DNA from: Methanobacteriota archaeon
Lineage (GTDB): Archaea; Thermoplasmatota; Thermoplasmata; RBG-16-68-12
Assembly: GCA_005878915.1 (NCBI GenBank)
Contig: VBML01000055.1
Coordinates: 1 to 34,663 of the forward strand
Reading direction: 5' to 3'
Length of the DNA stretch: 34,663 nucleotides
Part shown: positions 281 through 25,032 of the stretch, one piece after another
How positions within the stretch are numbered: position 1 is the first letter of the stretch
Layout: each line of letters begins with the position of its first letter
Made by a program: the position numbers and the translations under genes
Notes under the pieces: generated by a model
Seen by the model: the letters and a program-made list of their open reading frames with translations, nothing else
What the model was told of the DNA's origin: nothing
Databases searched by the model: none

Positions 281-3172
281 ATGCGGATTGCAGTCGTCTT
301 CAAAGACCGCTGTCAGCCCAAGCGGTGTAACCTTGAGTGCATCACCTTCTGCCCCCCGCAGCGCACTGGCACTGAGGTCATCTGGATTGACAAGGATTCT
401 GGGAAGGCCGCGATTAGCGAGGAGACGTGCATCTCCTGCGGGATTTGCCTCCCGGCGGGCGTGCCGATTTCTACGAAAGGCGGCGTGGTCCCCGTTGAAA
501 AGGTTGACGTTGGAGAGCTGGTGCTTACGCATGAAGGCCGCTATCGATCGGTCAGGAAAGTCTATCGGCGTTCTTACTCCGGTCTGATGTACAAGATCGT
601 CGCAACCGGCCAGCCCGATGCGCTCGAGGTGACCGAGGAACATCCGATTCTCGCAGTCGTTCGCCGACCCACAAAGCGCGGACGACGCCTCGAGAAGGCG
701 ATCGGTGAGCTTAGGTGGGTTCGTCCTGGGGATCTGAAGAAAGGCGACTACCTAGCCAAGCCTCGGATACGAGAGGCAAGAAGCCAGAACTGGGAGGCGC
801 CGATTCAAGTTGCGCTTTCCGGGGGTCGGTACGTCCGATGGGGCGAGCAGATCGCGTCAATTCCCGTCTCTCCTCGATTGGCGCAGCTTATCGGTTACTA
901 TCTGGCGGAGGGGTCCGCGGACGACCGCAGAGTCGTCTTCTCGTTCCACGAAAAGGAACGGGAATACCTGGATGATGTCCACGCGACTGTTTCTGAGTTC
1001 TTTGGGATCCGAGGACGCGAGTATCAGGGCAACGGGTTAGGCCGGCACATCAGGTTCGACTCATCAATTCTCGCGCGCATCATGAGGAACTTGGGCACGT
1101 CGTCCCATACGAAGCGAATTCCCTCGGTCATCATGACGGCCCCTCGGGAGGTTCGGGCCTCCGTCGTGCGCGGATTGTGGCGGGGGGACGGGTATCGCAA
1201 TCCCGAGCGTAGCTACTTCGTCCTTTCAACGACATCGCAACATCTAGCCTACCAATCTCAGGAACTCTTGGCGAGTTTGGGCATTGTGTCCGGAATAACG
1301 AGCCGAACTGCTCCCGGCAAGAAGCGGGCCTTCCACGTCACCGTCACGGCGGAATTCGTAGCTCCGATGGCGGCGCTGATGGGGTTGCGTTTTGAAGAGC
1401 AACGGAATCGAACCGCGAGCCATTTCATCATTGACGACGAGTATGTTTTCACGCCAATTCGGAGCATCGAAAGCACTCCGGTCTACGACGTGATGGTCCA
1501 CAACCTCGAGGTCGAAGAGGATCAGACCTACCTCGCGGCAGGAACCCTGGTCCATAATTGCGTGAAAAAGTGCCCATTCGACGCAATCCGGATAATCGGA
1601 TTGCCGGAGCCGTTGAAGGAGGACCTCGTCCACCAGTACAGCAAGAACGGGTTCCGGCTGTTCCGCCTCCCTGTCCCGAAAGCGGGCGAGGTCGTGGGCC
1701 TTCTCGGGCCGAACGGGATTGGGAAGACGACCCTCCTCTCGATCCTCAGCGGGGAACTGTGCCCGAACCTGGGCCACTACCGCCGCACGCGGCCGTACTG
1801 GAACGAGGTCCTCGAGAAATACAAGGGGACGGAGGCCCACGAGTACCTTGAGAAGATCGTCTCGAAGGAGATCCGCACCGCCCTGAAGCCGCAGTACGTC
1901 GACAAGCTCCCGAAGGTCGCGAAGGGGACCGTGGGCGATCTCCTGAAGAAAGTGGACGACCAGGGCCGCCTCGATGAGCTCTCGTCCCGCCTCTATCTCG
2001 ATTCTGTGCTGCATCGGGATATTGCGCACCTGAGCGGCGGGGAGCTCCAGCGCACCGCGATCGCGGCGACGATGCTGAAGGATGCGGACGTGTACTTCTT
2101 CGACGAACCCTCCTCGTACCTCGACATCTATCAACGCCTCGAGGTCGCGAAGGTCATCCAAACGCTGTCCAAGGAGAAATACGTCGTCGTCGTGGAGCAC
2201 GACCTGGCCGTCCTCGACTTCCTCGCGGACAGCGTGTACCTTCTCTATGGGTCCGAGGGCGCCTACGGCGTCGTCGCCCAACCCCGGGCCGTCCGCACCG
2301 GGATCAATGTGTACCTCGGCGGCTTCCTGAAGGAGGAGAACATCCGGTTCCGCGACCGGGAGGTCACCTTTGAATCTCGGCCGCCCCGGAAGGATTGGCG
2401 GGCGGAGACCCTTGTGACCTTCGACCGGCTCGAGAAGGCGTTCCCCGACTTCTCCCTCACCGTGGAGGGCGGGCAGCTCCGGAAGGGCGAGGTCGTCGGC
2501 GTCGTGGGTCCGAACGCGACGGGGAAGACGACGTTCGTGAAGATGCTCGCGGGGGAGGAGGCGCCGACGCGGGGTTCCCTGGCGGGGCGGTGGGCCGTCT
2601 CGTACAAGCCGCAGTACATCGAGCCGACCTTCGAGGGGACGGTCCGGGAGCTGTTCGCGGCGACCGTCGGGAATCGCGCGGAGAGCGGATGGTTCGAGAC
2701 GGAGGTCGCCCAGCCCCTCCAGATCCGCGGGATGATGGAACGGCCGGTCACCGAGCTCAGCGGCGGGGAGCTGCAGCGCGTCGCCGTGGGCCTCGCGCTC
2801 ACGCGGGAGGCGGACATCTACCTAATCGACGAGCCCTCCGCGTACCTGGACTCCAATCAACGGATGGCGGCGGCCAGGACGATCCGCCGCGTGATGGAGA
2901 ACCAGGGCCGGACCGGCCTGATCGTGGACCACGATGTGTACTTCATCGACATGGTCGCGGACTCGATCATGGTGTTCAGCGGGGAACCCGGCGTGCGCGG
3001 ACACGGGGAGGGCCCGTTCCCGATGCGGGAGGGGATGAACCGGTTCCTGCAGCTCGTCGAGGTCACGTTCCGCCGGGACGCGGACACTAACCGCCCTCGG
3101 ATCAACAAGCTCGACTCCCGCCTGGACCGCGAGCAGAAGCACGCGGGCGAGTACTACTACGCCCTCGCGTGA
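281..3172 (+). CDS. ABCE1/Rli1 ribosome-recycling ATPase (RNase L inhibitor homologue), interrupted by an in-frame intein
   Basis: 963 aa. N-terminal Fe-S domain CQPKRCNLECITFCP and CISCGI..CVKKCPFDAIRI, two ABC domains (GPNGIGKTT, LSGGELQR, FFDEPSSYLD; GPNATGKTT, LSGGELQR, LIDEPSAYLD), characteristic C-terminus. Confidence 0.97.
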   Translation: MRIAVVFKDRCQPKRCNLECITFCPPQRTGTEVIWIDKDSGKAAISEETCISCGICLPAGVPISTKGGVVPVEKVDVGELVLTHEGRYRSVRKVYRRSYSGLMYKIVATGQPDALEVTEEHPILAVVRRPTKRGRRLEKAIGELRWVRPGDLKKGDYLAKPRIREARSQNWEAPIQVALSGGRYVRWGEQIASIPVSPRLAQLIGYYLAEGSADDRRVVFSFHEKEREYLDDVHATVSEFFGIRGREYQGNGLGRHIRFDSSILARIMRNLGTSSHTKRIPSVIMTAPREVRASVVRGLWRGDGYRNPERSYFVLSTTSQHLAYQSQELLASLGIVSGITSRTAPGKKRAFHVTVTAEFVAPMAALMGLRFEEQRNRTASHFIIDDEYVFTPIRSIESTPVYDVMVHNLEVEEDQTYLAAGTLVHNCVKKCPFDAIRIIGLPEPLKEDLVHQYSKNGFRLFRLPVPKAGEVVGLLGPNGIGKTTLLSILSGELCPNLGHYRRTRPYWNEVLEKYKGTEAHEYLEKIVSKEIRTALKPQYVDKLPKVAKGTVGDLLKKVDDQGRLDELSSRLYLDSVLHRDIAHLSGGELQRTAIAATMLKDADVYFFDEPSSYLDIYQRLEVAKVIQTLSKEKYVVVVEHDLAVLDFLADSVYLLYGSEGAYGVVAQPRAVRTGINVYLGGFLKEENIRFRDREVTFESRPPRKDWRAETLVTFDRLEKAFPDFSLTVEGGQLRKGEVVGVVGPNATGKTTFVKMLAGEEAPTRGSLAGRWAVSYKPQYIEPTFEGTVRELFAATVGNRAESGWFETEVAQPLQIRGMMERPVTELSGGELQRVAVGLALTREADIYLIDEPSAYLDSNQRMAAARTIRRVMENQGRTGLIVDHDVYFIDMVADSIMVFSGEPGVRGHGEGPFPMREGMNRFLQLVEVTFRRDADTNRPRINKLDSRLDREQKHAGEYYYALA
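446..1558 (+). other. Intein (371 aa) with LAGLIDADG/DOD homing endonuclease, inside ABCE1
   Basis: Starts at Cys (CLPAGVPISTKGGVVPVEKVDVGELVLT, block A); block B ALEVTEEHPILAV; DOD blocks LAQLIGYYLAEGS, KRIPSVIM and VVRGLWRGDGY; blocks F/G VYDVMVHNLEVEEDQTYLAAGTLVHN followed by Cys+1. Excision gives CISCGI-CVKKCPFDAI, an uninterrupted ABCE1 ferredoxin motif. Confidence 0.96.
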
Positions 3173-8261: not shown

Positions 8262-9251
8262 ATGAGGGCCCTACGGCTAGCCCTTCTCGGCATTCTCGCG
8301 CTCGCTCTCTTAGCAGTCGCGCTCCCCGCCATCTCTCGTGCGACAGACCCGCCGGGCATGGACGGAGGGATGGACCCGCAACTCGTGCTCCTGGCGGACA
8401 TCCGGTCCGACTTCAATGTCATGGAATCGGGCTCGGCCCTCCCGATGCGCGTGGTCGTCGTGGACCAGCACGGGGTTCCCGTTCCGGGGGCCCTGGTCGA
8501 TATTTCGGCCGCCGGAGCGTCGGCAGCGCCATCCTCCGGGGTGACGGACGCGGATGGCGTCTTCCGGTTCCGGCTGACGGCGGGTCCTGCTTCGAGTCCT
8601 CTGCGGACGACGGTGATTGCGATCGCCACCATCCCGGGCGCGGCGACGGGATCGGACAGTTTCGCCCTCACAATTGCCCCGAAGCCGGTCCCCTTGCAGA
8701 TCCTCCCGCAGCACGAGGCCGTCTCTGTTGGGCTGGGGGCCCTCCTCGCGGCCGTGTTCTTGAGCACAGAGTTCGGCCGGTATGGCGTCTTCAAGGTCCT
8801 CGTCTTCCCGTTGTACTCCCGTCTGAAGAAGGAGGAGGTCCTCGATCACTTCGTCCGGGGCCAGATCTACGGGTACATCGTGTCCCACCCGGGGCAACAC
8901 TACAATTCAATGCGTCAGGATCTGAGGGTGACGAACGGCACGCTGGCCCATCACCTGCGGACCCTGGAGATGATGGGGTTCATCAAGTCCTACCGGGACG
9001 GGGTCTTCAAGCGGTTCTACCCCGTGGAGGTGTCGATCCCGCAGGAGAGCGGCGTCAAGCTGAGCGACCTCCAGATGAGGATGCTCGATCTCGTCCGGAG
9101 CGGCTCGGGGCCGACGCAGATGGAGATCGCGGAGCGGCTGAGCGTGACCCAGCAGACGGTCTCATACAACCTCCGGACGTTGAGCCGCGAAGGCGCGGTC
9201 CGGATGGAGAAGGACGGCCGGAACACCCGGTACTACCCGCTCGCCGCGTGA
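8262..9251 (+). CDS. Membrane-anchored winged-helix regulator: signal/TM, extracellular Ig-like domain, TM, two cytoplasmic wHTH domains
   Basis: N-terminal hydrophobic segment; VVVVDQHGVPVPGALVDISAAGAS...GVTDADGVFRFRLTAG (Ig/CarboxypepD_reg-like); TM AVSVGLGALLAAVFLSTEF; wHTH GYIVSHPGQHYNSMRQDLRVTNGTLAHHLRTLEMMGFIKSYRDGVFKRFYP and PTQMEIAERLSVTQQTVSYNLRTLSREGAVRMEKDGRNTRYYPL. Confidence 0.82.
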   Translation: MRALRLALLGILALALLAVALPAISRATDPPGMDGGMDPQLVLLADIRSDFNVMESGSALPMRVVVVDQHGVPVPGALVDISAAGASAAPSSGVTDADGVFRFRLTAGPASSPLRTTVIAIATIPGAATGSDSFALTIAPKPVPLQILPQHEAVSVGLGALLAAVFLSTEFGRYGVFKVLVFPLYSRLKKEEVLDHFVRGQIYGYIVSHPGQHYNSMRQDLRVTNGTLAHHLRTLEMMGFIKSYRDGVFKRFYPVEVSIPQESGVKLSDLQMRMLDLVRSGSGPTQMEIAERLSVTQQTVSYNLRTLSREGAVRMEKDGRNTRYYPLAA

Positions 9252-10567
9252 CCGGGTTCGGGTCTGCCTTTATGCTCCGCGGGAGCTATCGTCGTCGAAA
9301 GGCCTCGACCGTGCGCGCCGTTCGCCCGCTAGTCCTCGCCATCGGCATCGCCTCCGCGTTCCTCGTCCTCGCGGCCGTCCCGCAGGAAGCAACGGCAACG
9401 CGCACCGTCACCTACCCGTTCATCGCGGGCTCATACGTGATCCCGATGGATGACCAGCAGCCGGACCTCCTGCACGCGTTCGGTCTCGTCCACGCCATCC
9501 TCCGGAAGGGCGTCCCTGCGTACCGCGTCCTCACGCCGCCCGCAGTCCTCCTGAAGGTCGACGCTCTCGGGCCGAAGGTCCCCTTCGACGGCGGGCCGAT
9601 TCTCGTCTGGGGCACGTACAGCACGGAGTTTTCTGAGGCCTCCGCCGCGTTCCCTGGGGTCGCGTACTTCCGGCTCGCGGAACTCGAAGTCCTGGACCAC
9701 GTCCTCCCGATTCGGAAGCCCACGGGCGTGCTCGTCATGAAGGGCGGCTTCGACTGGGGGCACACGGAGATCCTGCTCAACCAGCTCGGGATTCCGTACG
9801 AGGTTCGGCAAACCTCTGACGTCGTCGCCGATCCGAGCCTCCTGTTCAACTACGCGCTCGTCGTGGACGACTGCAATGGCTGGAGCGGTGCCTACCCCGG
9901 GGACGCCGTCGCGGACGCGTTCCGGGCCTTCGTCGCGGGAGGGGGGCACGCGAGCTTCACGGACATCGCTCTCAAGGACATGGAGGTCCTGTTCCCGGGT
10001 CACGTCTCCCTCTTCGTGAATGCGAGGGGCACGTACAACGCCACAATCCATACCTTCGGAGACGCGCCCTCCCAGTACTTTGGGCCCGACGCAATTCCCG
10101 TGTTTACCGAGATCGACGGGGTCGTGATGGGCCCTCCGATTGCCGATGGCGTGAACGTCCTTCTCGACCTCCCGAATTACCCAGCCGGCTTCCAGAGGAC
10201 CGCGTACAGGATTCTCGCCGCCTACTTCGGGTACGGAAACGGGACCGTCGAGGGGTTCGCGTACCATCCCTTCGAGCAGACGGGAGCCGGGCACACGTTC
10301 TCCTCCGTCCTCTACGGGAACACGTTTGTGTCCGCGGTGCCCTTCCTGCCGCCGGCTCCCCCGCCGGTCCCCGCGGCCCTCGGCCTCCCCACGCCCCCAC
10401 CCGCTCCACCCGTTCCTCCCCCGCCGCCCCCTCCCCCCAGTCTCCCCGTCGTGAACCTTGCGTACACGGGATATCTGTTCGCGGGCTTTGCGGGTCTCGG
10501 GGTCACCGATGCCCTGAGGAACCGCCTCCGACTCCGGGCTCGGGAGAAGATCGCTGTGAGGGTCTGA
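9248..10567 (+). CDS. Secreted/surface protein of unknown function with proline-rich stalk and C-terminal TM anchor
   Basis: Signal-like VRAVRPLVLAIGIASAFLVLAAV; globular ectodomain; PPPAPPVPPPPPPPPSLP stalk; TM YLFAGFAGLGV + basic tail. GTG start overlaps the upstream TGA; an internal start (9272) is possible. Confidence 0.72.
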   Translation: MTGFGSAFMLRGSYRRRKASTVRAVRPLVLAIGIASAFLVLAAVPQEATATRTVTYPFIAGSYVIPMDDQQPDLLHAFGLVHAILRKGVPAYRVLTPPAVLLKVDALGPKVPFDGGPILVWGTYSTEFSEASAAFPGVAYFRLAELEVLDHVLPIRKPTGVLVMKGGFDWGHTEILLNQLGIPYEVRQTSDVVADPSLLFNYALVVDDCNGWSGAYPGDAVADAFRAFVAGGGHASFTDIALKDMEVLFPGHVSLFVNARGTYNATIHTFGDAPSQYFGPDAIPVFTEIDGVVMGPPIADGVNVLLDLPNYPAGFQRTAYRILAAYFGYGNGTVEGFAYHPFEQTGAGHTFSSVLYGNTFVSAVPFLPPAPPPVPAALGLPTPPPAPPVPPPPPPPPSLPVVNLAYTGYLFAGFAGLGVTDALRNRLRLRAREKIAVRV

Positions 10568-10568
10568 T

Positions 10569-11453
10569 GTGAAGCTTGGATTCCTCGTCCTGGCGACGCT
10601 CGTCCTTCTCGGCGTCATGATATCTGCCGTCTCGCCCCCCTCACGCGCGGTGTGGCCCTCGCCGGTCTTCGAGGACAACCTTGCCGTTCAGGCGAGCCCG
10701 GTTCGGCCCACGGACCAGGACCGGGTCACAATCGTGATTCGGACCATCCCCGCGAACACGTTCATCAAAGGGGCGACGATCTACGTCACGATTACGGACC
10801 CGGACAACGTCACGCAGGGGCCGTTCCCGAACCCCATGGTGCCCGGCAGCCCGCCCACGCAGGCGACGTTCGGCATCCGCTCGTACCCGAATGGAACGGA
10901 CGTGAGCTACTACATCGTCGCCTGGGATTTCGAGAATGATGTCGTGACGAGTCACTCCTATGCGTATCGAGTGGAGGGCGCCCCCTCGTTCGGCTGGCGG
11001 CATCCCGGATTCGATGAGAACGTCGAGGTGATCCTGTACCCGCCGCTCCCACAGCCGCACGACGAGGTGACCGTTTCCATCCGGAGCCGGGAGGCGAACG
11101 TCCGCATCGCGGGGGCGAACCTCCTCATCCGGTACGTCTACCAGGCCGACCCGCCGAAGGCCGGCGGGTTCGTGATGGCGTACGAGAACGCGACGGATCT
11201 CGCCGCAACGATCCCCGGATTCCCTCCGGGGACGCAGGTGATCTACTGGGTCACCGCATGGGACAAAGACGTGGAGACGATCACGTCCCCCCTGTTCTCG
11301 TACAACCTATCGGTTGACAAGTACACGCGCCATGAGAACGTCCCGTTCCCCTCTCCAGAAGCGTACGTCGGGACGTCCATCGGCCTTGCCGTCCTCGTCC
11401 CCATCGCGGTGTACTTCGCGGACATTCGGAGAAAGCGGAGGTCGCTGAAGTGA
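10569..11453 (+). CDS. Surface protein with two Ig-like repeats and C-terminal TM anchor
   Basis: Signal LGFLVLATLVLLGVMISAV; two parallel segments (PTDQDRVTIVIRTIPANTFIKGATIYVTI... / PHDEVTVSIRSREANVRIAGANLLIRY..., each followed by YYIVAWDFEND / IYWVTAWDKDVE); C-terminal TM and RRKRRSLK. Confidence 0.75.
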   Translation: MKLGFLVLATLVLLGVMISAVSPPSRAVWPSPVFEDNLAVQASPVRPTDQDRVTIVIRTIPANTFIKGATIYVTITDPDNVTQGPFPNPMVPGSPPTQATFGIRSYPNGTDVSYYIVAWDFENDVVTSHSYAYRVEGAPSFGWRHPGFDENVEVILYPPLPQPHDEVTVSIRSREANVRIAGANLLIRYVYQADPPKAGGFVMAYENATDLAATIPGFPPGTQVIYWVTAWDKDVETITSPLFSYNLSVDKYTRHENVPFPSPEAYVGTSIGLAVLVPIAVYFADIRRKRRSLK

Positions 11454-14158
11454 CGGCCCTCGATACGACGGTCCGTCCGCGCAGGCGAGGCATCACGGAT
11501 TCGATCTCGGATCGGGTGCGGGCGCTCAAGCTCCCCACGATCCAGTCGATCTGGATTACGGAACGCTCCCGCCCCGCGCTCGTGAAGGGCGCCGCGTTCT
11601 TCGCCCTCGCGGCGACGGGGTTCGCCTGGATCCCCTTCTACCCGTGGTGGGCCGTCGTGTTCTTCGCGTTCGTCGTCGGGGCGCTCGCGCTGCGGTTCCC
11701 CTTGTTCGCGGTGATCTCCCTCGGTGTCCTTGTGTCCGCCGCGGCCGCCGCGCAGATGGTCGAGTTCGGCCTGTTCTTCCTCGTCTTTACCCTGGCGATC
11801 TCGATCGTCTCCCTCTTCGACTGGAGATTCGGGTACCTCGTCTTCGGGTCCGTGTTCCTCTCCCTCCTCGGTGTCCCGTACCTCCCCCCAATCTGCGCGG
11901 CGGTCGTGTTCACGCGGTTCCTCGCGGTGGCGTCGATGGCGGCCTCCGCGACGTTCCTCTCCTTCCTCGTGACGTGCGGGAACCTCAATGTGGCCGGCTT
12001 CTTCGTGGGGCCCCCTCACGGGCTCCCTCCGACGAGTTTCCTGGTCTTCGGGACGGCCCCGAGGCCGGACTGGACTCCGGGAGCCCTCGGGGGCGCCCTC
12101 TCCTCGATCGGGCTTGCGAACCCCGATGTGATTTCGACCCTCCTCTCGACGAATTACGGCGCCTCTCTCGTCCCATTCCTCGAGATCGTCCTCTGGTGTG
12201 GCATCGTGTTCGTCATTGCGGAGCTCATCCGTCGGAAGGACTCGTTGGAGAACTGGGTGTTCACCGCCGCGGTCGCGACAATCGCTTTGGCGGCGGGATT
12301 CACGCTCTCGAGCCTCGCCCTTCAGGTCCCGATCCCCGCCGAATCGGCGGCGCTGCTCGTGGGCGCCTTCGGGCTGATCGCCGGGACGACGGCGGCCGGC
12401 GTCCTGGGGAAGGAGGCGTTCCGGGAATACTTCCTGGGTCAGGTCGCGACGACGGTGGGCCGGCGTCTCGCCGATGTCCCCGAGGCCCGCTCGACGACGT
12501 TCTCCCTCGTCGGCGGCCTCGCGGACGTAAAGGCGGACCTGAAGGAGTCGATCGTCGTCCCGTTGAAGAGGCCCGAGGTCGCCGCCCAGTATGGCATCAC
12601 CCCGCCCCGCGGCATCCTCCTGTTCGGCCCGCCGGGGTGCGGGAAGACGCTGTTGATGTCCGCCCTGGCCGGCGAGCTGGACATCGAAATGTTCACCGTG
12701 AAGTGCTCGGACGTGATGTCGAAGTGGTACGGTGAGAGCGAGCAGAAGATCGAGCAGCTGTTCCGGACCGCCAAGGAGCGCCGCCCGGCGATCATCTTCT
12801 TCGACGACATCGACGCGATCGCGAAGTCCCGCGACCTCTACGCGGGCGATGACGTCACCCCTCGGCTCCTCGGGATGATCCTCTCCGAGATCGATGGCCT
12901 CGACAAGTCCCCGGGGATGATCATGGTCGGGACGACGAACAAGCCGGAGCTCCTCGACTCCGCCCTCCTGCGGCCGGGGCGGTTCGACAAGATCGTCTAC
13001 GTCCCGCCGCCGTCGCGCCCGGAGCGGCTCGAGATCGTGAAGGTCCACCTCGCGGGCCGCCCCGCGTCCCCCGCTCTCGACCTTGGCGAAATCGCGGAAC
13101 GAACGGAGCGCTTCTCGGGGGCGGACCTTGCGAACCTCGTGAAGGAGAGCGCGGTCCTCGCGATGAAGCGCTCCCTCTCCGTGGGCCGCCCGGTGGCGAT
13201 CTCGTCGGAAGACTTCGAGGAGGTGCTGCCGAAGATGAAGCCCAGCATCACCCTGGCGCAGGCGGAGGAGTACGAGCGCCTCCGGCTGATTTACGAGCGG
13301 AAGATGCACCGGCTCGACCGGGAGGTGGAGGCCCTTGGATGGGCGGACGTTCGCGGCTTGGAGGAGCTCAAGGCCTCGCTGAGGGCGTACATGGACCTCG
13401 TCTTCACGAAGGCGGGAGCGATGGCGGACTTCCGCGTCAAGGCCTCGAAGGGGGTCCTCCTGTTCGGCCCGCCCGGGTGCGGGAAGACGTATCTGATGCG
13501 GGCCGCCGCGAACGAACTTGGGATCCCCGTCCAGGTCATCGAGGGGCCGTCCCTCCTGTCCGCCGGCGGGGATGGCGGGGCCACGATCAAGGAGATCTTC
13601 TACATCGCGCGGGAGAACGCGCCCTCCGTCGTCCTCTTCGACGACATCGATCTGATCGCCTCCGCGAACGACCGAAGCCCGGAGTCCCGCAACCTCCTCT
13701 CCCAGTTCCTGGCGCAGGTCGATTCCATCGGCGAGCAGGGGCGGGTCCTCGTCGTCGCGACGACGAACCGGCCGCACGTCCTCGAACACGCCCTTCTCCG
13801 TCCCGGTCGGTTCGACAAGCTGTTCTTCGTCCCGCCCCCGGACCCCGAGGCACGCCTTGCCCTCGCCGAATCCGCGCTGCATGGCGTGCCCACGGTTGGA
13901 CTGGGCCGCGACGTCCTTGCTCGGCTGACCCGCGAAGCGGAGGGGTTCTCCAGCGCGGACATCATGGCAGCCGTCGATGAAGCGAAGTTCCTTGCGATCC
14001 GGGAGGGAGCGCGGGAGGTTGCGGCGGGCCACCTGGAGGCGGCGTTCGCCCGCTTCCGACCCTCCGTTACCCCGGAGTCCCTCGCTTCGTCGCGGGAGTT
14101 CATCCGGGTGCACAATGTTCGCGTCGCGATCGGAGGTCCCGAGGAGACGGAACCGTGA
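11450..14158 (+). CDS. Polytopic membrane protein with two tandem AAA+ (Cdc48/Msp1-like) ATPase domains
   Basis: About 300 aa of hydrophobic TM segments, then AAA D1 (GPPGCGKT, KWYGESE pore loop, FFDDID, RPGRFD) and AAA D2 (GPPGCGKT, LFDDID, RPGRFD). No FtsH-type HExxH protease motif. Confidence 0.93.
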   Translation: MTALDTTVRPRRRGITDSISDRVRALKLPTIQSIWITERSRPALVKGAAFFALAATGFAWIPFYPWWAVVFFAFVVGALALRFPLFAVISLGVLVSAAAAAQMVEFGLFFLVFTLAISIVSLFDWRFGYLVFGSVFLSLLGVPYLPPICAAVVFTRFLAVASMAASATFLSFLVTCGNLNVAGFFVGPPHGLPPTSFLVFGTAPRPDWTPGALGGALSSIGLANPDVISTLLSTNYGASLVPFLEIVLWCGIVFVIAELIRRKDSLENWVFTAAVATIALAAGFTLSSLALQVPIPAESAALLVGAFGLIAGTTAAGVLGKEAFREYFLGQVATTVGRRLADVPEARSTTFSLVGGLADVKADLKESIVVPLKRPEVAAQYGITPPRGILLFGPPGCGKTLLMSALAGELDIEMFTVKCSDVMSKWYGESEQKIEQLFRTAKERRPAIIFFDDIDAIAKSRDLYAGDDVTPRLLGMILSEIDGLDKSPGMIMVGTTNKPELLDSALLRPGRFDKIVYVPPPSRPERLEIVKVHLAGRPASPALDLGEIAERTERFSGADLANLVKESAVLAMKRSLSVGRPVAISSEDFEEVLPKMKPSITLAQAEEYERLRLIYERKMHRLDREVEALGWADVRGLEELKASLRAYMDLVFTKAGAMADFRVKASKGVLLFGPPGCGKTYLMRAAANELGIPVQVIEGPSLLSAGGDGGATIKEIFYIARENAPSVVLFDDIDLIASANDRSPESRNLLSQFLAQVDSIGEQGRVLVVATTNRPHVLEHALLRPGRFDKLFFVPPPDPEARLALAESALHGVPTVGLGRDVLARLTREAEGFSSADIMAAVDEAKFLAIREGAREVAAGHLEAAFARFRPSVTPESLASSREFIRVHNVRVAIGGPEETEP

Positions 14159-14451
14159 CGCCGTTCGAGGTCTTCTTGCTCGGGCTTGTTGCGACGGTGT
14201 TCGCCGTCGCCATCGTCGCCCTCCGGTTTCCCCGGGGACGCGCCGAGTGGCCGCTGGACGCCCGCCGCACGGCGTGGCTCCTCATCAGCGGGCTCACCGC
14301 CGTGGTCGTGTTCGCCCTCTCATACGCGGCGACGAGGGACGTGCGGTGGCCCGATTTCGTGACAGTGACCTTCGTCGTCGTCTCTCTATGCCTCGCCCTT
14401 CTCGTTGCGGTTTCCGTCTTCCTCCCTCAGGGCCTTCGCGCGCGACCGTGA
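14155..14451 (+). CDS. Small membrane protein (about 3 TM), translationally coupled to the AAA+ gene
   Basis: 98 aa hydrophobic ORF; GTG start overlaps the AAA+ TGA (GTGA). Confidence 0.65.
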   Translation: MTPFEVFLLGLVATVFAVAIVALRFPRGRAEWPLDARRTAWLLISGLTAVVVFALSYAATRDVRWPDFVTVTFVVVSLCLALLVAVSVFLPQGLRARP

Positions 14452-16619: not shown

Positions 16620-19556
16620 ATGAGGAAGCCGTTACATATGGCAATCGCCTTGGCGGCCGTGGCCGTCGTGGCGCTGATGCTGGCCGTGCCGCTTTATCTG
16701 CCCACCGCCAGCGCGATTGATAGCACGCGGGCGGGAACGACGATCTACACCGTCGGCGGGCAGGACCAGATGAAGACGCGGAACTGGTTGCCCGCGGTCG
16801 CGAACGACGTGTGGACGTCGGACGTGCTCGGCCGCGTGTACGACACTGTGGGCCAGACACACCCGGTGACCGACGCCTTGGTTCCGTACATTATCAAGGG
16901 TGTCGATGACGACGGGGACGGAGGATTCCAGCGATCGGAGAAGGCGGACTTCCTGAAGGGGACCTGCCCGGTGCCGTGCGCGGATGAGGTGACGTGGCGT
17001 CGGACGGTCATCGCGTTCTATGACTTCAACGGCGTATACTTCCACGACGGAGTGCAGGCCACGATCGGGGACGTGTTGTTCAACTACGTCTTCCAATCCC
17101 TGAACCCGCGGTTCAACACGGACCTCCGGGTCCTGTGGGATGACCCGAACGCGCCCTCGTTCGCGGCAAACCGGCACATGAACATCGACCTGCTGTGGTG
17201 CGGCCCGACCCTGGAAACGCAGTGGCAGGGATTTGGGGCGGTGCCAGGGGACAACACACTCCGATGTGCCCTTAAGTTCCGACTCCAGGACGACTTCGCA
17301 CTGTTCTACCGATCGACCCTGGTGGGTCTCACCCTGTTCCCGCGGCACGAGTTCGAGGGGACGGGCGGTGGACGACACCCGGTGATGAACATCCCGAATT
17401 TCCCCCTTGGATGTGACAACGTGGACTGGGGCCGCGCAATCTATCCGGAGAACGATCCGAACTTCGGCCAGGGCGTACGGACCGACGAGACGTTGTACCG
17501 ACCATTCCAGTACCAGTGCGCGGAGGCCTGGCAGATGACGGACGCAGATGTCATCGGCACGGGTCCGTTCAAGTTCGGCACGTGGTCCTTCGGTCAGTTC
17601 GCGCAGGTCGTCAAGAACCCGCGGTTCTTCTACGGGGTGAACCCCGACAACACCGCGGTCGTGTACGACCCGGACCTACCGGTGTACATGCACCAGCCGT
17701 TCGTCGACTCGATTCTGTTCAAGGTCTACCGGACGACACAGCTCGGCGTCCTCGCGCTCCAGTCGGGGGAGATCGACTTCTACCACTGGGCGCTCCCGCC
17801 CGAGTTCGTCCCGGACCTCCTCAACGACCAGAGCATCCGGGTATGGGCGAACGCGGAGCCAGGGTTCTTCTACCTGGCGTACAACTTCCGGCGCCAGCCG
17901 TTCGGCTATACGTCGTGGCCCCCGCCTGTCGGCCAGGACCGCGACCCACTCGTCGACACGGGCCTGCCGTTCCGCCAAGCGTTTGCTCACCTGATTGACA
18001 AGGCCACGATCGTCCGTGTGCTGCTCCAAAACTATGGAGTCATCGCAGACGGTACCCTTAGCCCGTCCAACACGTTCTGGTACAACGGGACCCTCCCGAA
18101 GTACGCGTACGACCCGACGCAGGCAGGCCTCATTCTGGACAATGCGGGCATGCCCAAGACGGGCCCGGGCCCCTGCCAGACCGACGGAACGAACTGCCGC
18201 GACCTAGGCCTGCGCCTTGGGAGGAGCCAGTTTGAAATCCTGACGCCGCAGGCGGACTACGACCCAATCCGTGCTTCCGCGGGCGCGATGATTGCGGCCG
18301 CCGCGCGGTCGATCGGCGTGAACGTCGCCTCGAAGCCCACGGCGTTCGGGACCATCGTCGCCAAGACGGCGGCGGCCGACTTCGACATGTTCATCCTCGG
18401 GTGGAGGATCAGCGGAACGGACCCCGACTACCTGTTCAGCTTCTTCCACAGCTCGAACGCAGCCAGTGGCCAGAACTACCCCGGATTCTACGACTCCCAG
18501 TTCGACTCCGTGATTTCGGCGAGCCGAAAGGAGCTCGACGAGGCGAAGCGGCAGCAGCTGGTGAAGTGGGCCCAGGGGATCCTGGCCGAGCGGCTACCGT
18601 ACGACGTGCTCTACTACCGGACGAACATCGAGGCCGAGCGGCAAGACCGGTTCGCGAACTACTCGGTGTCCTCGGGATCGATCTGGAACTACTGGTCGAT
18701 CCAGAGCATCAAGCGGCCCACGAACAAGTTCATCCGGCCACTCGTCACCGCCCCGAACGCGATTGTCGAGGGCGGGACGACCGCGGTGGCGACAACGGTC
18801 CGCGACCAGGCCGGCGTTGCAGTCGTGGGAGCGAGTGTGAGGTACTCCGTGCCCGCCGGGAGCGGGACGTTTACGCCAGGAGGATCCTGCACGGGAGCCA
18901 CGTGTTCGGTCACGGGCCAAACCGGTTCGTCTGGAACGTTCACGGCAAGCTACGTGGCACCTGCGACCGTCCCAAGCGGGAACCCGAACGTGCAGATCGG
19001 CGTGACCGTAACGTCGACGGACCCTGATGTCGCCGTGGAGCAGCGGCTCGCCACCGTAACGGTCTTCGCCGCGGGTACTCAGTTCCTGTCGCTCACACCG
19101 CAGCTGAGCACGGGTGACCTCGTTCCGACGGGCGAGAGCCTCGTGTTCGGCGTCGATGTCAGGGACCAGGACGGCAACCTCGCGCCGAGTGCCACGGTGA
19201 CCCTGACGGTGAGCCCCTCGGGCCCATCGATCACGCCGCCTTCAGGAACCGCCTCCCAGCTACGGTCGGGCATCGTCTTCCAGGCACCCGCGAGCATCTC
19301 GCAGAGCCAGGCGACGTACACGGTGACCGTGACGGCGACACAGGCGGGATCCGCTCCGACGACGTCGACGATACCGTTCACGGTCGTGCAGCTAACGTCA
19401 ACGTTCCGATGCCCTGACGGCACGGTCGTGCCGGCGGGAGCGGCGTGTCCGGGAGGGCCTCTGGTCCCCGCGCTGGACGTACTGCCGATCCTCGCGACGG
19501 TCGGGGCTGCAGCGGTCGTCTACGGCATCCTGCGGAACCGCAAGAAGGGGGCATAA
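16620..19556 (+). CDS. ABC transporter family 5 (peptide/opine type) substrate-binding protein with C-terminal Ig-like domains and TM anchor
   Basis: SBP_bac_5 features (VIGTGPFKFGTWSFGQFAQVVKNPRFF, DTGLPFRQAFAHLIDKATIV, DFDMFILGWRISGTDPDYLFSFFHSS); C-terminal Big-type repeats; ALDVLPILATVGAAAVVYGILRNRKKGA anchor. Confidence 0.92.
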   Translation: MRKPLHMAIALAAVAVVALMLAVPLYLPTASAIDSTRAGTTIYTVGGQDQMKTRNWLPAVANDVWTSDVLGRVYDTVGQTHPVTDALVPYIIKGVDDDGDGGFQRSEKADFLKGTCPVPCADEVTWRRTVIAFYDFNGVYFHDGVQATIGDVLFNYVFQSLNPRFNTDLRVLWDDPNAPSFAANRHMNIDLLWCGPTLETQWQGFGAVPGDNTLRCALKFRLQDDFALFYRSTLVGLTLFPRHEFEGTGGGRHPVMNIPNFPLGCDNVDWGRAIYPENDPNFGQGVRTDETLYRPFQYQCAEAWQMTDADVIGTGPFKFGTWSFGQFAQVVKNPRFFYGVNPDNTAVVYDPDLPVYMHQPFVDSILFKVYRTTQLGVLALQSGEIDFYHWALPPEFVPDLLNDQSIRVWANAEPGFFYLAYNFRRQPFGYTSWPPPVGQDRDPLVDTGLPFRQAFAHLIDKATIVRVLLQNYGVIADGTLSPSNTFWYNGTLPKYAYDPTQAGLILDNAGMPKTGPGPCQTDGTNCRDLGLRLGRSQFEILTPQADYDPIRASAGAMIAAAARSIGVNVASKPTAFGTIVAKTAAADFDMFILGWRISGTDPDYLFSFFHSSNAASGQNYPGFYDSQFDSVISASRKELDEAKRQQLVKWAQGILAERLPYDVLYYRTNIEAERQDRFANYSVSSGSIWNYWSIQSIKRPTNKFIRPLVTAPNAIVEGGTTAVATTVRDQAGVAVVGASVRYSVPAGSGTFTPGGSCTGATCSVTGQTGSSGTFTASYVAPATVPSGNPNVQIGVTVTSTDPDVAVEQRLATVTVFAAGTQFLSLTPQLSTGDLVPTGESLVFGVDVRDQDGNLAPSATVTLTVSPSGPSITPPSGTASQLRSGIVFQAPASISQSQATYTVTVTATQAGSAPTTSTIPFTVVQLTSTFRCPDGTVVPAGAACPGGPLVPALDVLPILATVGAAAVVYGILRNRKKGA

Positions 19557-19632
19557 TCCCCCTTCCCCTTTCCTTTATTAGTCCGGTCGCGGTGTTTGGG
19601 GGTAGGCGGGCCGGATCCCGAGGCGGGGAGCG

Positions 19633-21300
19633 ATGAGGCTCAGGACGTACTTGATTCGGCGAGCGATTCACACGGTGATCACGCTTCTCGTTGTCCTCGT
19701 CCTCCTGTTCGTGATCTTCCGCCTGATGCCGGGCGACCCGACGCGCTTCTTCATCGCACCGGGGCAGCCCCCGCAGGTGCGCGAAGAGCTGTGTGTCAAC
19801 TTCGGCCTGTGCAAATGGGTGAGCGCGCCGGGGAACGGATACGAAGGGCGAATCCAAGCGGGTGAGTTCGGGGCGTACAACCTGACCGCGTTCGTGAACG
19901 ATACCGCCGGGACCCGTTGTGGTGGGAACGTTTGCAACTATTCGTTCGTGTACAACAACTACCCTAGCGAGGTCCAGCAGAGGACTCATCCTGCGGTGAA
20001 GATTCTTGACGTCACAATGTCGGCCGCCGGCGGGCCCGCGCGGCCGAGCCTGCCGGACGCGGCCCCTGGTGATCCGATCACGATCCGGGCGCGCATCATT
20101 GGGTCGACCACCCAGACGCTGCGCGTGTTGAGCCCCGGGTCCGGTTGGGCCTTTCCCCTGACTGTCGACGATGGCAGTGACAAATTCCATTGGGGTGTCG
20201 TCGCCAGCGCGTCGGTCGGGGCCGATCGCAAACACTGGGCCGTCCTGACCGCGAACGACGGCGCCGGGACGTGGGTGAACCTGACGTTCGGTTTCGCTGC
20301 CAACAGCCCGGTGCCGGGGTTCGACCTCGTTGAGGGCAAGTTCTTCGGGATCCGACCGGTGTCCCAGTTGAACGTCGCTGTCATCAGCGTGAATGTGACA
20401 TCCCGGGCTGCCGCGATTCGGGGAGTCACCCTAAATGTCGACTCGCAGCCGACGGGCGGCGGCCAGCGGGACATCCATCTCTTCCATCCGCAGCAAGCCG
20501 TTCGCCGCAGCCTCGCCGAGCAGTTCGTCCTCTACTTCATCAACATGATGTCGGGGAATTTCGGCACATCGTTCTATACGCACATCCCGGTCACCGACGA
20601 GATTGCCGTCCGGATCGGACCGACCTTGCTCCTGTTCGGATCGTCCGTGGTCATCTCCTACATCCTCGGGATCCTGCTGGGCGCGATCCTCGCTTGGCGC
20701 CGCGGCACGAAGATGGAGCTCTCGGCGATCGTCGTGAGCCTGTTCTTCTACTCCATGCCGGTCTTCTGGTTCGGGCTCGTGCTCCTGTGGGCCTTCGCGT
20801 TCACGCTCAAGGCCCTCCCGCTCCAGGGGATCGGTGGGTTCGATAACTACGGCAACCCGTACACTGGCTTCGCGTTGGTGCAGGACATCCTTTGGCATAT
20901 GACCCTCCCGCTCGCGAACCTAGTGATCCTGGGCCTCGCGGGTCACGTCCTGCTGATGCGGAACAGCATGCTCGAGGTGATGGGCGAGGACTACATCCTG
21001 ACCGCAAAGGCCAAGGGGCTCAGCGAGCGGAAGGTGATGTACCGGCACGCCGCCCGCAACGCGCTGCTGCCCGTCGTGACGGCCCTGGCGATTTCGATTG
21101 GCGGGGTGATCAGCGGCGGAGTGCTCACGGAGACGATCTTTTCGTGGCCCGGGATGGGCTTTTTCCTCGTGACCCGGACCCTGGCGCAGGACTTCCCCGC
21201 CGTGCAGGCGGCGTTCTTCATCCTCGCCGTGCTCACGATTCTCGCGAACTCCGTCGCCGATGTCCTCTATGCCTACTTGGATCCCCGCGTGAGGCTCTAG
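19633..21300 (+). CDS. DppB-type permease with large extracellular insertion after TM1
   Basis: N-term RRAIHTVITLLVVLVLLFVIFRLMPGDPTRFF; C-term SGNFGTSFYTHIPVTDEIAVRIGPTLLLFGSSVV...MRNSMLEVMGEDYILTAKAKGLSERKVMYRHAARNALLPVVTALA. About 220 aa of extra sequence between. Confidence 0.92.
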   Translation: MRLRTYLIRRAIHTVITLLVVLVLLFVIFRLMPGDPTRFFIAPGQPPQVREELCVNFGLCKWVSAPGNGYEGRIQAGEFGAYNLTAFVNDTAGTRCGGNVCNYSFVYNNYPSEVQQRTHPAVKILDVTMSAAGGPARPSLPDAAPGDPITIRARIIGSTTQTLRVLSPGSGWAFPLTVDDGSDKFHWGVVASASVGADRKHWAVLTANDGAGTWVNLTFGFAANSPVPGFDLVEGKFFGIRPVSQLNVAVISVNVTSRAAAIRGVTLNVDSQPTGGGQRDIHLFHPQQAVRRSLAEQFVLYFINMMSGNFGTSFYTHIPVTDEIAVRIGPTLLLFGSSVVISYILGILLGAILAWRRGTKMELSAIVVSLFFYSMPVFWFGLVLLWAFAFTLKALPLQGIGGFDNYGNPYTGFALVQDILWHMTLPLANLVILGLAGHVLLMRNSMLEVMGEDYILTAKAKGLSERKVMYRHAARNALLPVVTALAISIGGVISGGVLTETIFSWPGMGFFLVTRTLAQDFPAVQAAFFILAVLTILANSVADVLYAYLDPRVRL

Positions 21301-23676
21301 ATGTTCTCGAAGCGGGGAATCCGGGACAGGTACGACAGCTGGAAGAAGCTGTTCCTCCAGAACTGGACATTGTTCAAGGCGAGCCGGATCGGCCTCGTAG
21401 GCCTCGCGATCATGATTGCGTTCCTCATCGTCGCGGCCGCCGTCCCCTACCTGGGCCTCCGGGACCCGCTGTACTGGATCGCCCCGGAATCCGACACGAT
21501 TGCGGTCACGCAATGGTGGCGGCAGGAGGTGATCCCCAGCAACGTACTGTTCGGCGTCAACGGAAGCGTCGATCACGCGGTCGCGTTTCGCACCTTGGTG
21601 TATCAGTCCGGCGAACATCGCGTGGATCGCATCTATGTCGCAGAGAACACCCGAATCTTCGCCCTCGAGACCGATTTCGCAACCCTGAAGTGGAATTGCC
21701 CGGGCGGAGGCTTCCAGGCAAACGATACGATCTCCGTGGACCCCGTCGTGTTGAACTACGGGGACTTTCGGAGCACGGCCCAGACCCATACCTACGATTT
21801 CCACCTGATGTTTGGGGACCGGAGCGGCAATGTTTACGCGATGCAGGATAATGACGACACTGGGTGCCCGGTTCCTCTGAGGGTGACCCTTGGATCGCCG
21901 ATCACGGGACTTGCGGCCCTGACTGTCGACGATCTGTCTGGGCTGACCGACCGGGACGCGTTCGTCGTCGGGACGGCGGATGGACACCTATACGCGTTCA
22001 CGGTCAATCGGACCTCCGGTCCGTTCTACGAAGAGCTATGGAACACGACCCTGAGCCCAGGGTCCCCTGTGCATCTCGCGGGCTCCGTCGTCAGAACGAA
22101 TGAGGGTGTACCCACCTCCTCCCCCGCCTTTTTCTATTCCGCCGTGACCTCATCCCGCTTGGGGGAGACCGTTTTCGCCGGCACCGGCGATGGATGGGTG
22201 TGGTCCGTGTGGATGTCGAACGGTACCGTTCGCTGGTCGAAGCTACTGGGAACCGGCGCCCCGTGGTCGAGCGCACCGATCGTGCAGCCGGCGTCGGAGA
22301 TCACTCCCGTGAAGCCCACGCTCGTGTACGCGACGACGAAGGACGCTCCCCTCCCTGTCGGAACCAACGCGACGAAGGTGTATGTCCTCGACGCGGAGAC
22401 GGGACGCCCGCTGGCGAGTTGGCAGCAAGTCGTTCCAGCGGGGGACGGCGGCCTCCCGATCGTCTACCGCGGGGCGATCGACACCGGTGTCCCGAACACG
22501 CCCGCGGTCTTTGGGTCGAGCATCTACGTGACGACGAGCACCGGCTGGTTGTACAGCGTCAATCGGGATCCCGTGCGAGGGACCGGTGGCGTCATCGTCC
22601 AAGATGCCGGGACGGTCGCTTGGGCGTTTCGAGATGTCACGTTCCGCCAGGACGCGAAGCACACGACATACTTCCGCGCCCAACCGTATTTCTTCAACAA
22701 CCTTCAGCTTCTCGTCGCCCCGGGGAGCTACAACAATGGCACGGCGGGCGAGTCGGACGATCTCGGGATCGTCTACGTGTTCAATGGAGCCACGGGATCC
22801 CTCGTGTGGAAGCGGACCTTTCAATTCGCGATCCTGGGGATGGCGCCTGCTTGGCCCGACAAGCAGCACGATCTGCCCTCTGTGTTCTTCGGCACGGTTC
22901 GGGGGGACATCTACTCCTACAGCATCTCGGGCCGCGTGATCGCTCCGCTCCCCCCGAGCTGGGTCCGGTCCAGGCCGTGTCCTGCCGGGGAGAGATGCGA
23001 GTACTACATCCTCGGCACGGACGCCCGTGGGCGGGACATCTTCAGCCAGCTCCTCTGGGGGAGCCGCATCGCCCTCCTCGTGGGGTTCGCCTCCGCGTTC
23101 TTCACAATTTCCATCGGGGTGATCATCGGACTCGTCGCGGGCTATCTCGGGGGTCGGGTCGAAAACATCCTGATGCGGTTCACGGACGTCATCCTCGTGA
23201 TCCCCGGACTCCCGCTCGTGATCATCCTCGCCGCGGTCCTCGGCGCCGGCGTTGGAAACATCATCCTCGTCATTTCCATTGTGGGATGGCCCGGCGTCGC
23301 CCGTGTGATCCGGGCGGAAGTGCTCTCCCTGAAGGAGCGCCCGTTCATCGACTCCGCGAAGGTGACGGGGGCGAGCAACGTGCGGATCATGTTCCGCCAC
23401 ATCGCGCCGAACGTCGCGCCCCTCGCGTTCCTGTACATGACGTTCGCCGTCAGCGGCGCGATCCTGACGGAGGCGGCCCTGAGCTTCATCGGGCTCGGGG
23501 ACGTGAACACGATCAGTTGGGGACTGATGTTGCAGGACGTCTCGCAGTCGAAGGCGTTGCAGGCGTGGTGGTGGCTATTGCCTCCGGGGCTCGCGATCAC
23601 CCTGATCTCCCTCGCCTTCTTCCTCGTCGGGCGGGCGTTCGATGAAATCGTGAACCCGAGGCTGAGAAAACGGTAG
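21301..23676 (+). CDS. DppC-type permease with an inserted PQQ/WD-like beta-propeller domain
   Basis: TM1 SRIGLVGLAIMIAFLIVAAAV; C-terminal YILGTDARGRDIFSQLLWGSRIALLVGFASAFFTISIGVIIGLVAGYLGG...ILTEAALSFIGLG. Between them repeated propeller blades (DRIYVAENTRIFALETDFATLKW, FVVGTADGHLYAFTVNRTSG, VFAGTGDGWVWSVWMSNGTVRWSK, KVYVLDAETGRPLASW, SIYVTTSTGWLYSVNRDP, IVYVFNGATGSLVWKR, VFFGTVRGDIYSYSISG). Confidence 0.93.
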   Translation: MFSKRGIRDRYDSWKKLFLQNWTLFKASRIGLVGLAIMIAFLIVAAAVPYLGLRDPLYWIAPESDTIAVTQWWRQEVIPSNVLFGVNGSVDHAVAFRTLVYQSGEHRVDRIYVAENTRIFALETDFATLKWNCPGGGFQANDTISVDPVVLNYGDFRSTAQTHTYDFHLMFGDRSGNVYAMQDNDDTGCPVPLRVTLGSPITGLAALTVDDLSGLTDRDAFVVGTADGHLYAFTVNRTSGPFYEELWNTTLSPGSPVHLAGSVVRTNEGVPTSSPAFFYSAVTSSRLGETVFAGTGDGWVWSVWMSNGTVRWSKLLGTGAPWSSAPIVQPASEITPVKPTLVYATTKDAPLPVGTNATKVYVLDAETGRPLASWQQVVPAGDGGLPIVYRGAIDTGVPNTPAVFGSSIYVTTSTGWLYSVNRDPVRGTGGVIVQDAGTVAWAFRDVTFRQDAKHTTYFRAQPYFFNNLQLLVAPGSYNNGTAGESDDLGIVYVFNGATGSLVWKRTFQFAILGMAPAWPDKQHDLPSVFFGTVRGDIYSYSISGRVIAPLPPSWVRSRPCPAGERCEYYILGTDARGRDIFSQLLWGSRIALLVGFASAFFTISIGVIIGLVAGYLGGRVENILMRFTDVILVIPGLPLVIILAAVLGAGVGNIILVISIVGWPGVARVIRAEVLSLKERPFIDSAKVTGASNVRIMFRHIAPNVAPLAFLYMTFAVSGAILTEAALSFIGLGDVNTISWGLMLQDVSQSKALQAWWWLLPPGLAITLISLAFFLVGRAFDEIVNPRLRKR

Positions 23677-23705
23677 TCGCTGGCGATGGCGGGCCGCTGC
23701 TCGAG

Positions 23706-25031
23706 GTGAAGGACCTCCGAGTCTACTTCCGGATCATGAAGGGCACCGTGAAGGCGGTCGACGGCGTCTCGTTCCAGCTGAAGCGCGGGGAGACGATGGG
23801 ACTCGTCGGGGAGAGCGGGTGCGGGAAGACGACGACCGCGTACGCGATCACCCGGCTCCTCCCGAACAACGGGGAGATTGTCGGCGGGGAGATCCGATTC
23901 AACAACGCCCTCGTCGGGCGCGCCCATGTCGCCACGGAGGTGAACGAGGCGCTGAAGCGGACGACATGGTTCGAGGAGGTCCAGGCGATCCTCGGGAGCC
24001 AGGAGGCGGAGATCGCCGAGCGCCAGAAGGCCCTGATGGAGGCGGAGGCCCGCGTGGCGGCCGCCCCGGAGGAGGCCCGCGGTCCCCTGATCGCCGCCGT
24101 CGATCCGATCCGCGCGCAGGTGGCGGCGCGCCTGCACGAGGCCGAGCTCATCCAGACGCTCCGCGCGGTGGGGGCGGCCCCGCCGTCGGACGAGCTGAAG
24201 GCCGCCCTTCAGGCGGTCGTCGACGACGACTTGAAAGGGTTCACCGCCGCCCGCCGAAGGCGGCGGATGGACCGGGAGATCGAGACGGAGATCAACACGA
24301 TCCGGTGGTCCCAGGTCTCGATGATCTTCCAGAGCGCGATGAACGCGTTCAACCCCGTGTACCGGGTCGGGGACCAGATCGCGGAGGCCCTCCTGACGCA
24401 TTTCCCGGACATGACGAAGGAGCAGGCCCGCGACCGCGTGCTGCAGCTGTTCAGCCGCGTCGGGATCGACCAGAGCCGCGTCGACGGGTACCCGCACGAG
24501 TTCAGCGGGGGGATGCGGCAGCGGTCGATGATCGCGATGGCCCTCGCGTGCAACCCCCAGCTCCTGATTGCGGACGAGCCGACGACGGCCCTCGACGTGA
24601 TCATGCAGGACCGGATCCTCGCGGAGATCCGCGACCTGCAGCGGGAGCTGAACATCTCGATGATCATCATCACGCACGACATCTCCGTCGTCGCGGAGGT
24701 CGCCGAGAAGATCGGGATCATGTACGGCGGGAAGCTCTTCGAGTACGGGAACATCATGGAGGTGTTCGACCGGCCCGCGAACCCGTACACCCTCGGGCTC
24801 ATGTCCGCGTTCCCCAGCATCAAGGGGAACCGGAAGCGCCTCCGGGCGATCCCCGGGAGCCCGCCGGACCTCAGCGACCCGCCGCCGGGCTGCCGCTTCC
24901 ATCCGCGGTGTCGGTTCGCGCAGGAGATCTGCCGCGAGAAGGACCCGCCGATGGTCGAGGTCGCCTCCGGCCACTGGTCCCTGTGCCACTTCGCGAAGGA
25001 GATCTACGAGGGCACGCTGAGGGAGAGCTGA
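23706..25031 (+). CDS. DppD-type ABC ATPase with helical insertion between Walker A and Q-loop
   Basis: GESGCGKTTTAYAITRLLP, FSGGMRQRSMIAMALACNPQLLIADEPTTALDV, C-terminal oligopeptide-ATPase CRFHPRCRFAQEIC. About 130 aa extra (NEALKRTTWFEEVQAILGSQEAEIAERQKALMEAEARVAAA...). Start could lie slightly upstream (CTG 23697). Confidence 0.93.
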   Translation: MKDLRVYFRIMKGTVKAVDGVSFQLKRGETMGLVGESGCGKTTTAYAITRLLPNNGEIVGGEIRFNNALVGRAHVATEVNEALKRTTWFEEVQAILGSQEAEIAERQKALMEAEARVAAAPEEARGPLIAAVDPIRAQVAARLHEAELIQTLRAVGAAPPSDELKAALQAVVDDDLKGFTAARRRRRMDREIETEINTIRWSQVSMIFQSAMNAFNPVYRVGDQIAEALLTHFPDMTKEQARDRVLQLFSRVGIDQSRVDGYPHEFSGGMRQRSMIAMALACNPQLLIADEPTTALDVIMQDRILAEIRDLQRELNISMIIITHDISVVAEVAEKIGIMYGGKLFEYGNIMEVFDRPANPYTLGLMSAFPSIKGNRKRLRAIPGSPPDLSDPPPGCRFHPRCRFAQEICREKDPPMVEVASGHWSLCHFAKEIYEGTLRES

Positions 25032-25032
25032 C

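Follow-up and report, generated by a model that had tools for sequence, protein, structure and literature searches.

The question raised by this locus was what a protein that joins a multi-pass membrane region to two AAA domains does in an archaeal cell, and whether it works alone. The window, by which we mean the whole stretch of 34,663 nucleotides that was analysed, carries its gene within a run of plus-strand genes whose products and parts, as predicted, are as follows.

8262 to 9251, plus strand: membrane-tethered regulator, the first gene of the run, overlapping the gene that starts at 9248 by 4 nt
9248 to 10567, plus strand: single-pass surface partner with a signal segment, an ectodomain, a Pro-rich linker, a C-terminal TM anchor and a basic tail (...REKIAVRV)
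10430 to 10564, plus strand: C-terminal anchor-plus-tail module, common to the window partner and the vWA partner of other classes
10569 to 11453, plus strand: ectodomain protein with a signal segment, two tandem repeats of about 100 aa and a C-terminal TM
11450 to 14158, plus strand: membrane-embedded AAA protein of 902 aa, with a core of about 10 TM helices followed by D1 and D2
11561 to 12532, plus strand: transmembrane core that defines the family (profile A1; match at E 1.6e-139)
12614 to 13006, plus strand: AAA domain D1 (Pfam), pore loop SKWYGESE (residues 424-431), Walker B FFDDID
13454 to 13834, plus strand: AAA domain D2 (Pfam), pore loop non-aromatic; degenerate or absent in many relatives
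14155 to 14451, plus strand: small 3-TM protein of 98 aa with a (K/R)(Y/F)PRGRxxWP motif, a conserved downstream neighbour

The AAA reading frame is intact, begins at a GTG start codon and shares 4 nt with the gene on either side (GTGA at 11450-11453 and at 14155-14158). Comparison with the genes of two sister species gave codon differences of 126/68/284 and 130/95/306 at positions 1/2/3, a pattern which indicated that the gene is under purifying selection in the plus frame. Because selection acts in this frame, the long antisense ORF at 11243-14113 (minus strand) was discounted as a by-product of the G+C-rich sequence.

Pfam analysis of the protein identified two AAA domains, in two stretches that scored 242.5 bits (cut-off 21.2), and also assigned two AAA lid domains, which confirmed the arrangement given in the preliminary description, namely two Cdc48-type AAA domains following a multi-pass membrane region. 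The aromatic pore loop that had been noted in D1 (KWYGESE) proved to be a family trait, as SKWYGESE was present in 39 of the 41 members and SRWYGESE in the other two. Likewise, D2 of the window protein has LLSAGGDGGATIKEIF at the pore-loop place, and no aromatic residue was found there in any member inspected, in keeping with what had been observed in the single sequence. The HExxH motif was found in none of the 41 members, so the earlier exclusion of FtsH on this ground held for the family, and the C-terminal HbYX motif of proteasome docking was found in 0 of 39 closed C-termini.

The region preceding the AAA domains had been described as about 300 aa of multi-pass membrane sequence. Its multi-pass nature was upheld, and its length was revised to nearer 340 aa, with the membrane part spanning about residues 45-316. 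Family-averaged hydropathy and charge suggest about ten TM helices with both termini cytoplasmic, and would leave a loop outside the cytoplasm at about residues 181-236; this topology agrees with the positions of R82, R126 and R261-K263. The core had no counterpart in the PDB at E<=10, and its Pfam matches were stray ones (E>=0.14). AlphaFold models, for which the alignment comprised four sequences, reached mean pLDDT values of 46 and 40 and were too poor for use. The earlier view of an AAA protein integral to the membrane, with a pore loop of the unfoldase type in D1, was supported.

With the core profile, relatives were recovered from 59 of the 400 genomes examined in the same archaeal class, which represent 16 of 105 genera. 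Among 389 genomes sampled across the phylum, 30 had a relative, and 13 of these 30 belong to other classes; no plasmid-borne relatives of the core were found. None of the NCBIfam models among the matches listed reached its cut-off for the window protein. The CDC48 model scored 433.5 bits against a cut-off of 802.65, with only the AAA parts aligning, the FtsH model scored 367.9 bits against 600, and the PAN models were also below cut-off. Together with the lack of a Pfam or PDB match to the core, these scores left standing the statement that no named family takes the protein. PADLOC matches to IetA and TRIP13 were set aside, as they are explained by shared AAA domains and do not point to a defence system.

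A phylogeny of each AAA domain, as had been proposed, was obtained with Cdc48 D1 and D2, PAN and FtsH as references. In this maximum-likelihood tree all family D1 domains formed one clade and all family D2 domains another (100/99 for each), and both clades fell outside those of the sampled Cdc48 D1, Cdc48 D2, PAN and FtsH domains. Beyond these references, Msp1, Vps4 and Bcs1 were set apart by architecture only. The window protein, with about ten TM helices and two AAA domains, does not have the Msp1/ATAD1 architecture of one N-terminal TM and one AAA. No Bcs1 model was among the best 25 of 34 Pfam matches, and the ten or so TM helices speak against Bcs1. A search of the open-access literature found no paper describing the membrane-core AAA family. 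Judged by these comparisons, the protein belongs to a family of its own, so far unnamed.

The two AAA domains differ markedly in conservation. Across the same 23 loci the mean pairwise identity was 64.5% for D1 and 45.7% for D2. The Walker motifs of D2 are kept in families f15 and f26, while key residues are lost in f17 (GPPGCGKK with LIEHID), f12 (GPKGCQK with VISDIE) and f20 (ISDID), and D2 is absent altogether in loci L094-L099. D1 keeps all motor motifs and is never degenerate or absent in relatives. Since D2 is the less conserved of the two and is degraded or missing in many relatives, D1 is assigned as the conserved motor and D2 as dispensable, an assignment that is read from sequence conservation. 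At one further locus (L093:7932-9026, minus strand) D2 lies in a reading frame apart from that of D1, which may represent a frameshift, an assembly error or a true split gene.

Comparison of the gene neighbourhoods of 41 loci revealed a conserved set across genera and classes. In other lineages the ectodomain is fused to the N-terminus of the AAA protein, and in the window it is encoded by the separate gene directly upstream, whose repeats are beta-sandwich-like by their sequence pattern. A profile made from the fused ectodomains, with the window genus left out, matched this protein at E 6.4e-48 and also recovered the separate upstream gene in the other unfused loci. Every locus with enough flank had the ectodomain either fused to the AAA gene or directly upstream of it. 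Among the 400 genomes, 59 carried the core and 61 the ectodomain, and the two occurred together in 56 (Fisher p 1.4e-58, a value that ignores the relatedness of the genomes). Searches of PDB with the ectodomain profile and with the partner-head profile gave no meaningful match for either. The gene order indicates that both genes adjoining the AAA gene specify parts of the same system, with the AAA protein as the predicted motor of a conserved operon.

The regulator has a signal segment, a carboxypeptidase-regulatory/Ig-like ectodomain, a TM and two winged HTHs, and among the gene neighbourhoods no genus but that of the window showed it. About ten loci from other lineages have, as the first product of the operon, a protein some 2000 aa long that carries vWA and Ig repeats and is missing from the window lineage. 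The gene upstream of the f17 partner (L090:6095-7258, L076:5993-7048 and L089:5854-6852) resembled a type I signal peptidase by eye, but this identity had no Pfam support and was not retained. Two genomes have two copies of the AAA gene each (L083 and L103 in G080; L084 and L113 in G093). In both, one copy has a fused ectodomain, and the other has N-terminal cytoplasmic zinc ribbons and is accompanied by two separate ectodomain proteins.

Elsewhere in the window we observed an ABCE1/Rli1 gene (281-3172, plus strand) that is interrupted within the iron-sulfur motif (CISCGIC / CVKKCPF) by an intein some 370 aa long (Hint, LAGLIDADG); the ABCE1/Rli1 protein of the sister species in L075 has 603 aa and no intein. 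An oligopeptide ABC transporter operon (16620-26226, plus strand) encodes solute-binding proteins and permeases of unusual length (978, 555 and 791 aa).

Pfam has no family for the surface partner encoded in the window; its head is a domain without a Pfam match, and the head of the corresponding protein in other classes is a vWA domain. Alignment of the two partner families by hhalign gave a probability of 98.2% (E 3.6e-14) over the last 36 residues only. When a profile of this anchor-plus-tail module, made from four vWA partners, was run against 4129 ORF ends, it singled out the partners of the window type, and a search in the opposite direction concurred. The module was present in 11 of 14 genomes, as a single copy in each and always at the AAA locus; the three genomes that had no match (f20 and f39) have diverged tails. 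In f15 and f26 a tandem pair of partners, each of them related to the ectodomain, carries EEKRITL-like tails. Ten genomes of these families have two copies each of such a tail, both in the operon, and none was found in a genome without the AAA gene; a third, weak match in one genome did not include the tail. In f15 it is the ectodomain, rather than the vWA-type partner, from which the partners derive, so that tails from different lineages may not be equivalent.

As whole-genome searches placed the tail at the AAA locus alone, we rejected its being a general tail degron. Its uniqueness to the locus suggests a dedicated partner, not a pool of clients. Nor was a free-standing general extractase supported, since the operon conserved around the AAA gene also encodes an ectodomain, a tailed surface partner and a small membrane protein.

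Based on these observations, we favor, with a little more than even confidence, a role for the AAA protein as the motor subunit of a dedicated complex that sits in the membrane, remodels proteins and engages surface partners. The protein would form a hexamer, as assumed from its AAA class, with a membrane ring above D1, and the basic cytoplasmic C-terminal tail of the surface partner would dock on the AAA ring or enter the D1 pore. ATP hydrolysis would then pull on the tail, so that the surface complex was assembled, switched, disassembled or turned over, and D2 would serve as a scaffold or regulatory ring. The outward heads are exchangeable (vWA, a domain without a Pfam match, or tandem beta-sandwich-like proteins), and as they change while the anchor and tail stay, one machine adapted to different surface ligands is suggested. 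The tail could also be a mere topogenic anchor or subunit contact and not a pore substrate. More tentatively, we speculate that the locus specifies an energised surface machine, in which a membrane AAA unfoldase would grip the dedicated C-terminal tails of exchangeable heads and perform mechanical work, driven by cytoplasmic ATP, on structures outside the cell, such as switching adhesion or assembling or dismantling surface complexes.

Three other explanations were considered against the dedicated remodelling complex. The protein could drive a system for secretion or surface assembly, by which large extracellular proteins would be exported or erected, with the giant vWA and multi-Ig surface protein beside the operon in about ten loci as a possible cargo and the ten-helix core as a possible conduit; the parts list also resembles that of a published prediction that is discussed below. 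However, the giant protein is missing from the window lineage, all partners have signal segments of their own, which makes export by Sec likely, and there was no sign of a channel; we regard this explanation as unlikely. Alternatively, the protein might extract membrane proteins generally, for quality control, in the manner of Msp1/ATAD1 or of membrane-recruited Cdc48, with the ectodomain as a mere sensor. The aromatic KWYGESE pore loop and the membrane anchoring would be expected of such an enzyme, VAT and p97 are its nearest solved sequences among the matches listed, and a PAN-like proteasome ATPase is encoded in archaeal genomes of the group, including its own. Set against this are a patchy spread that would be unusual for general quality control, the strict operon linkage to surface proteins, a partner tail that is confined to this locus in each genome and the lack of HbYX ends. 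As the tail module is unique to the locus, a dedicated machine fits better, and we consider general extraction distinctly unlikely.

The ectodomain and vWA heads, together with a regulator whose gene overlaps that of the partner and which has its own ectodomain, could instead indicate an energised surface sensor, in which a ligand outside alters AAA activity inside and a signal passes, for example, to the membrane-tethered HTH regulator. The limitation of the regulator to the window genus and the usually mechanical, rather than purely signalling, work of AAA unfoldases render this very improbable.

The dedicated remodelling complex that we favor has partial counterparts among known AAA systems. 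Its motor resembles VAT, Cdc48 and p97 in having two classical Cdc48-type AAA domains; among the solved matches listed, D1 was nearest to VAT D2 and p97 D2, and D2 was nearest to Afg2/Cdc48 D2. In contrast to these proteins, it has a ten-helix membrane core in place of the Cdc48 N-domain, its D1 and D2 form clades of their own, and the pore-loop roles are inverted relative to p97, with the aromatic residue in D1 and not in D2. FtsH is likewise a membrane-anchored classical AAA, but the family members have more TM helices and no HExxH protease, and FtsH grouped with PAN in the tree, away from them. Msp1/ATAD1 shares a membrane anchor and a KWYGES-type pore loop, whereas in Msp1 a single TM is joined to a single AAA domain, and Msp1 is not known to have operon partners.

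Among published proposals, the closest is a system predicted in archaea, for secretion or remodelling, in which arCOG01314 (DUF4350), vWA and Ig-like proteins are combined with a MoxR ATPase (Makarova et al. 2015, PMC5898192). The likeness consists in an AAA motor gene that is linked to those of small membrane proteins and, in relatives, of vWA and Ig-like proteins, and in a single-pass partner with a signal peptide and a C-terminal TM. However, the motor here is a classical membrane-embedded AAA (PF00004-type) and not MoxR, and the window partner is vWA-like only in its anchor and tail. Membership of the partner in DUF4350/arCOG01314 was rejected, as hhalign gave a probability of 0.1% against three DUF4350 proteins and there was no Pfam match; PF14258 had no match in its own genome. 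In the same genomes MoxR genes lie on contigs other than those of the AAA operon, in some cases close to DUF4350 matches, and the two systems therefore coexist.

The familiar classical AAA unfoldases are motors of the cytosol or of membrane proteases, and few energised systems are understood in archaeal surface biology. Within this one family, the retention, degradation or loss of D2 across lineages constitutes a natural experiment, and the tail module and the D1 pore form a concrete, testable pairing. A motor with a ten-helix core that is tied to swappable extracellular heads would link Cdc48-type machinery to the surface biology of archaea.
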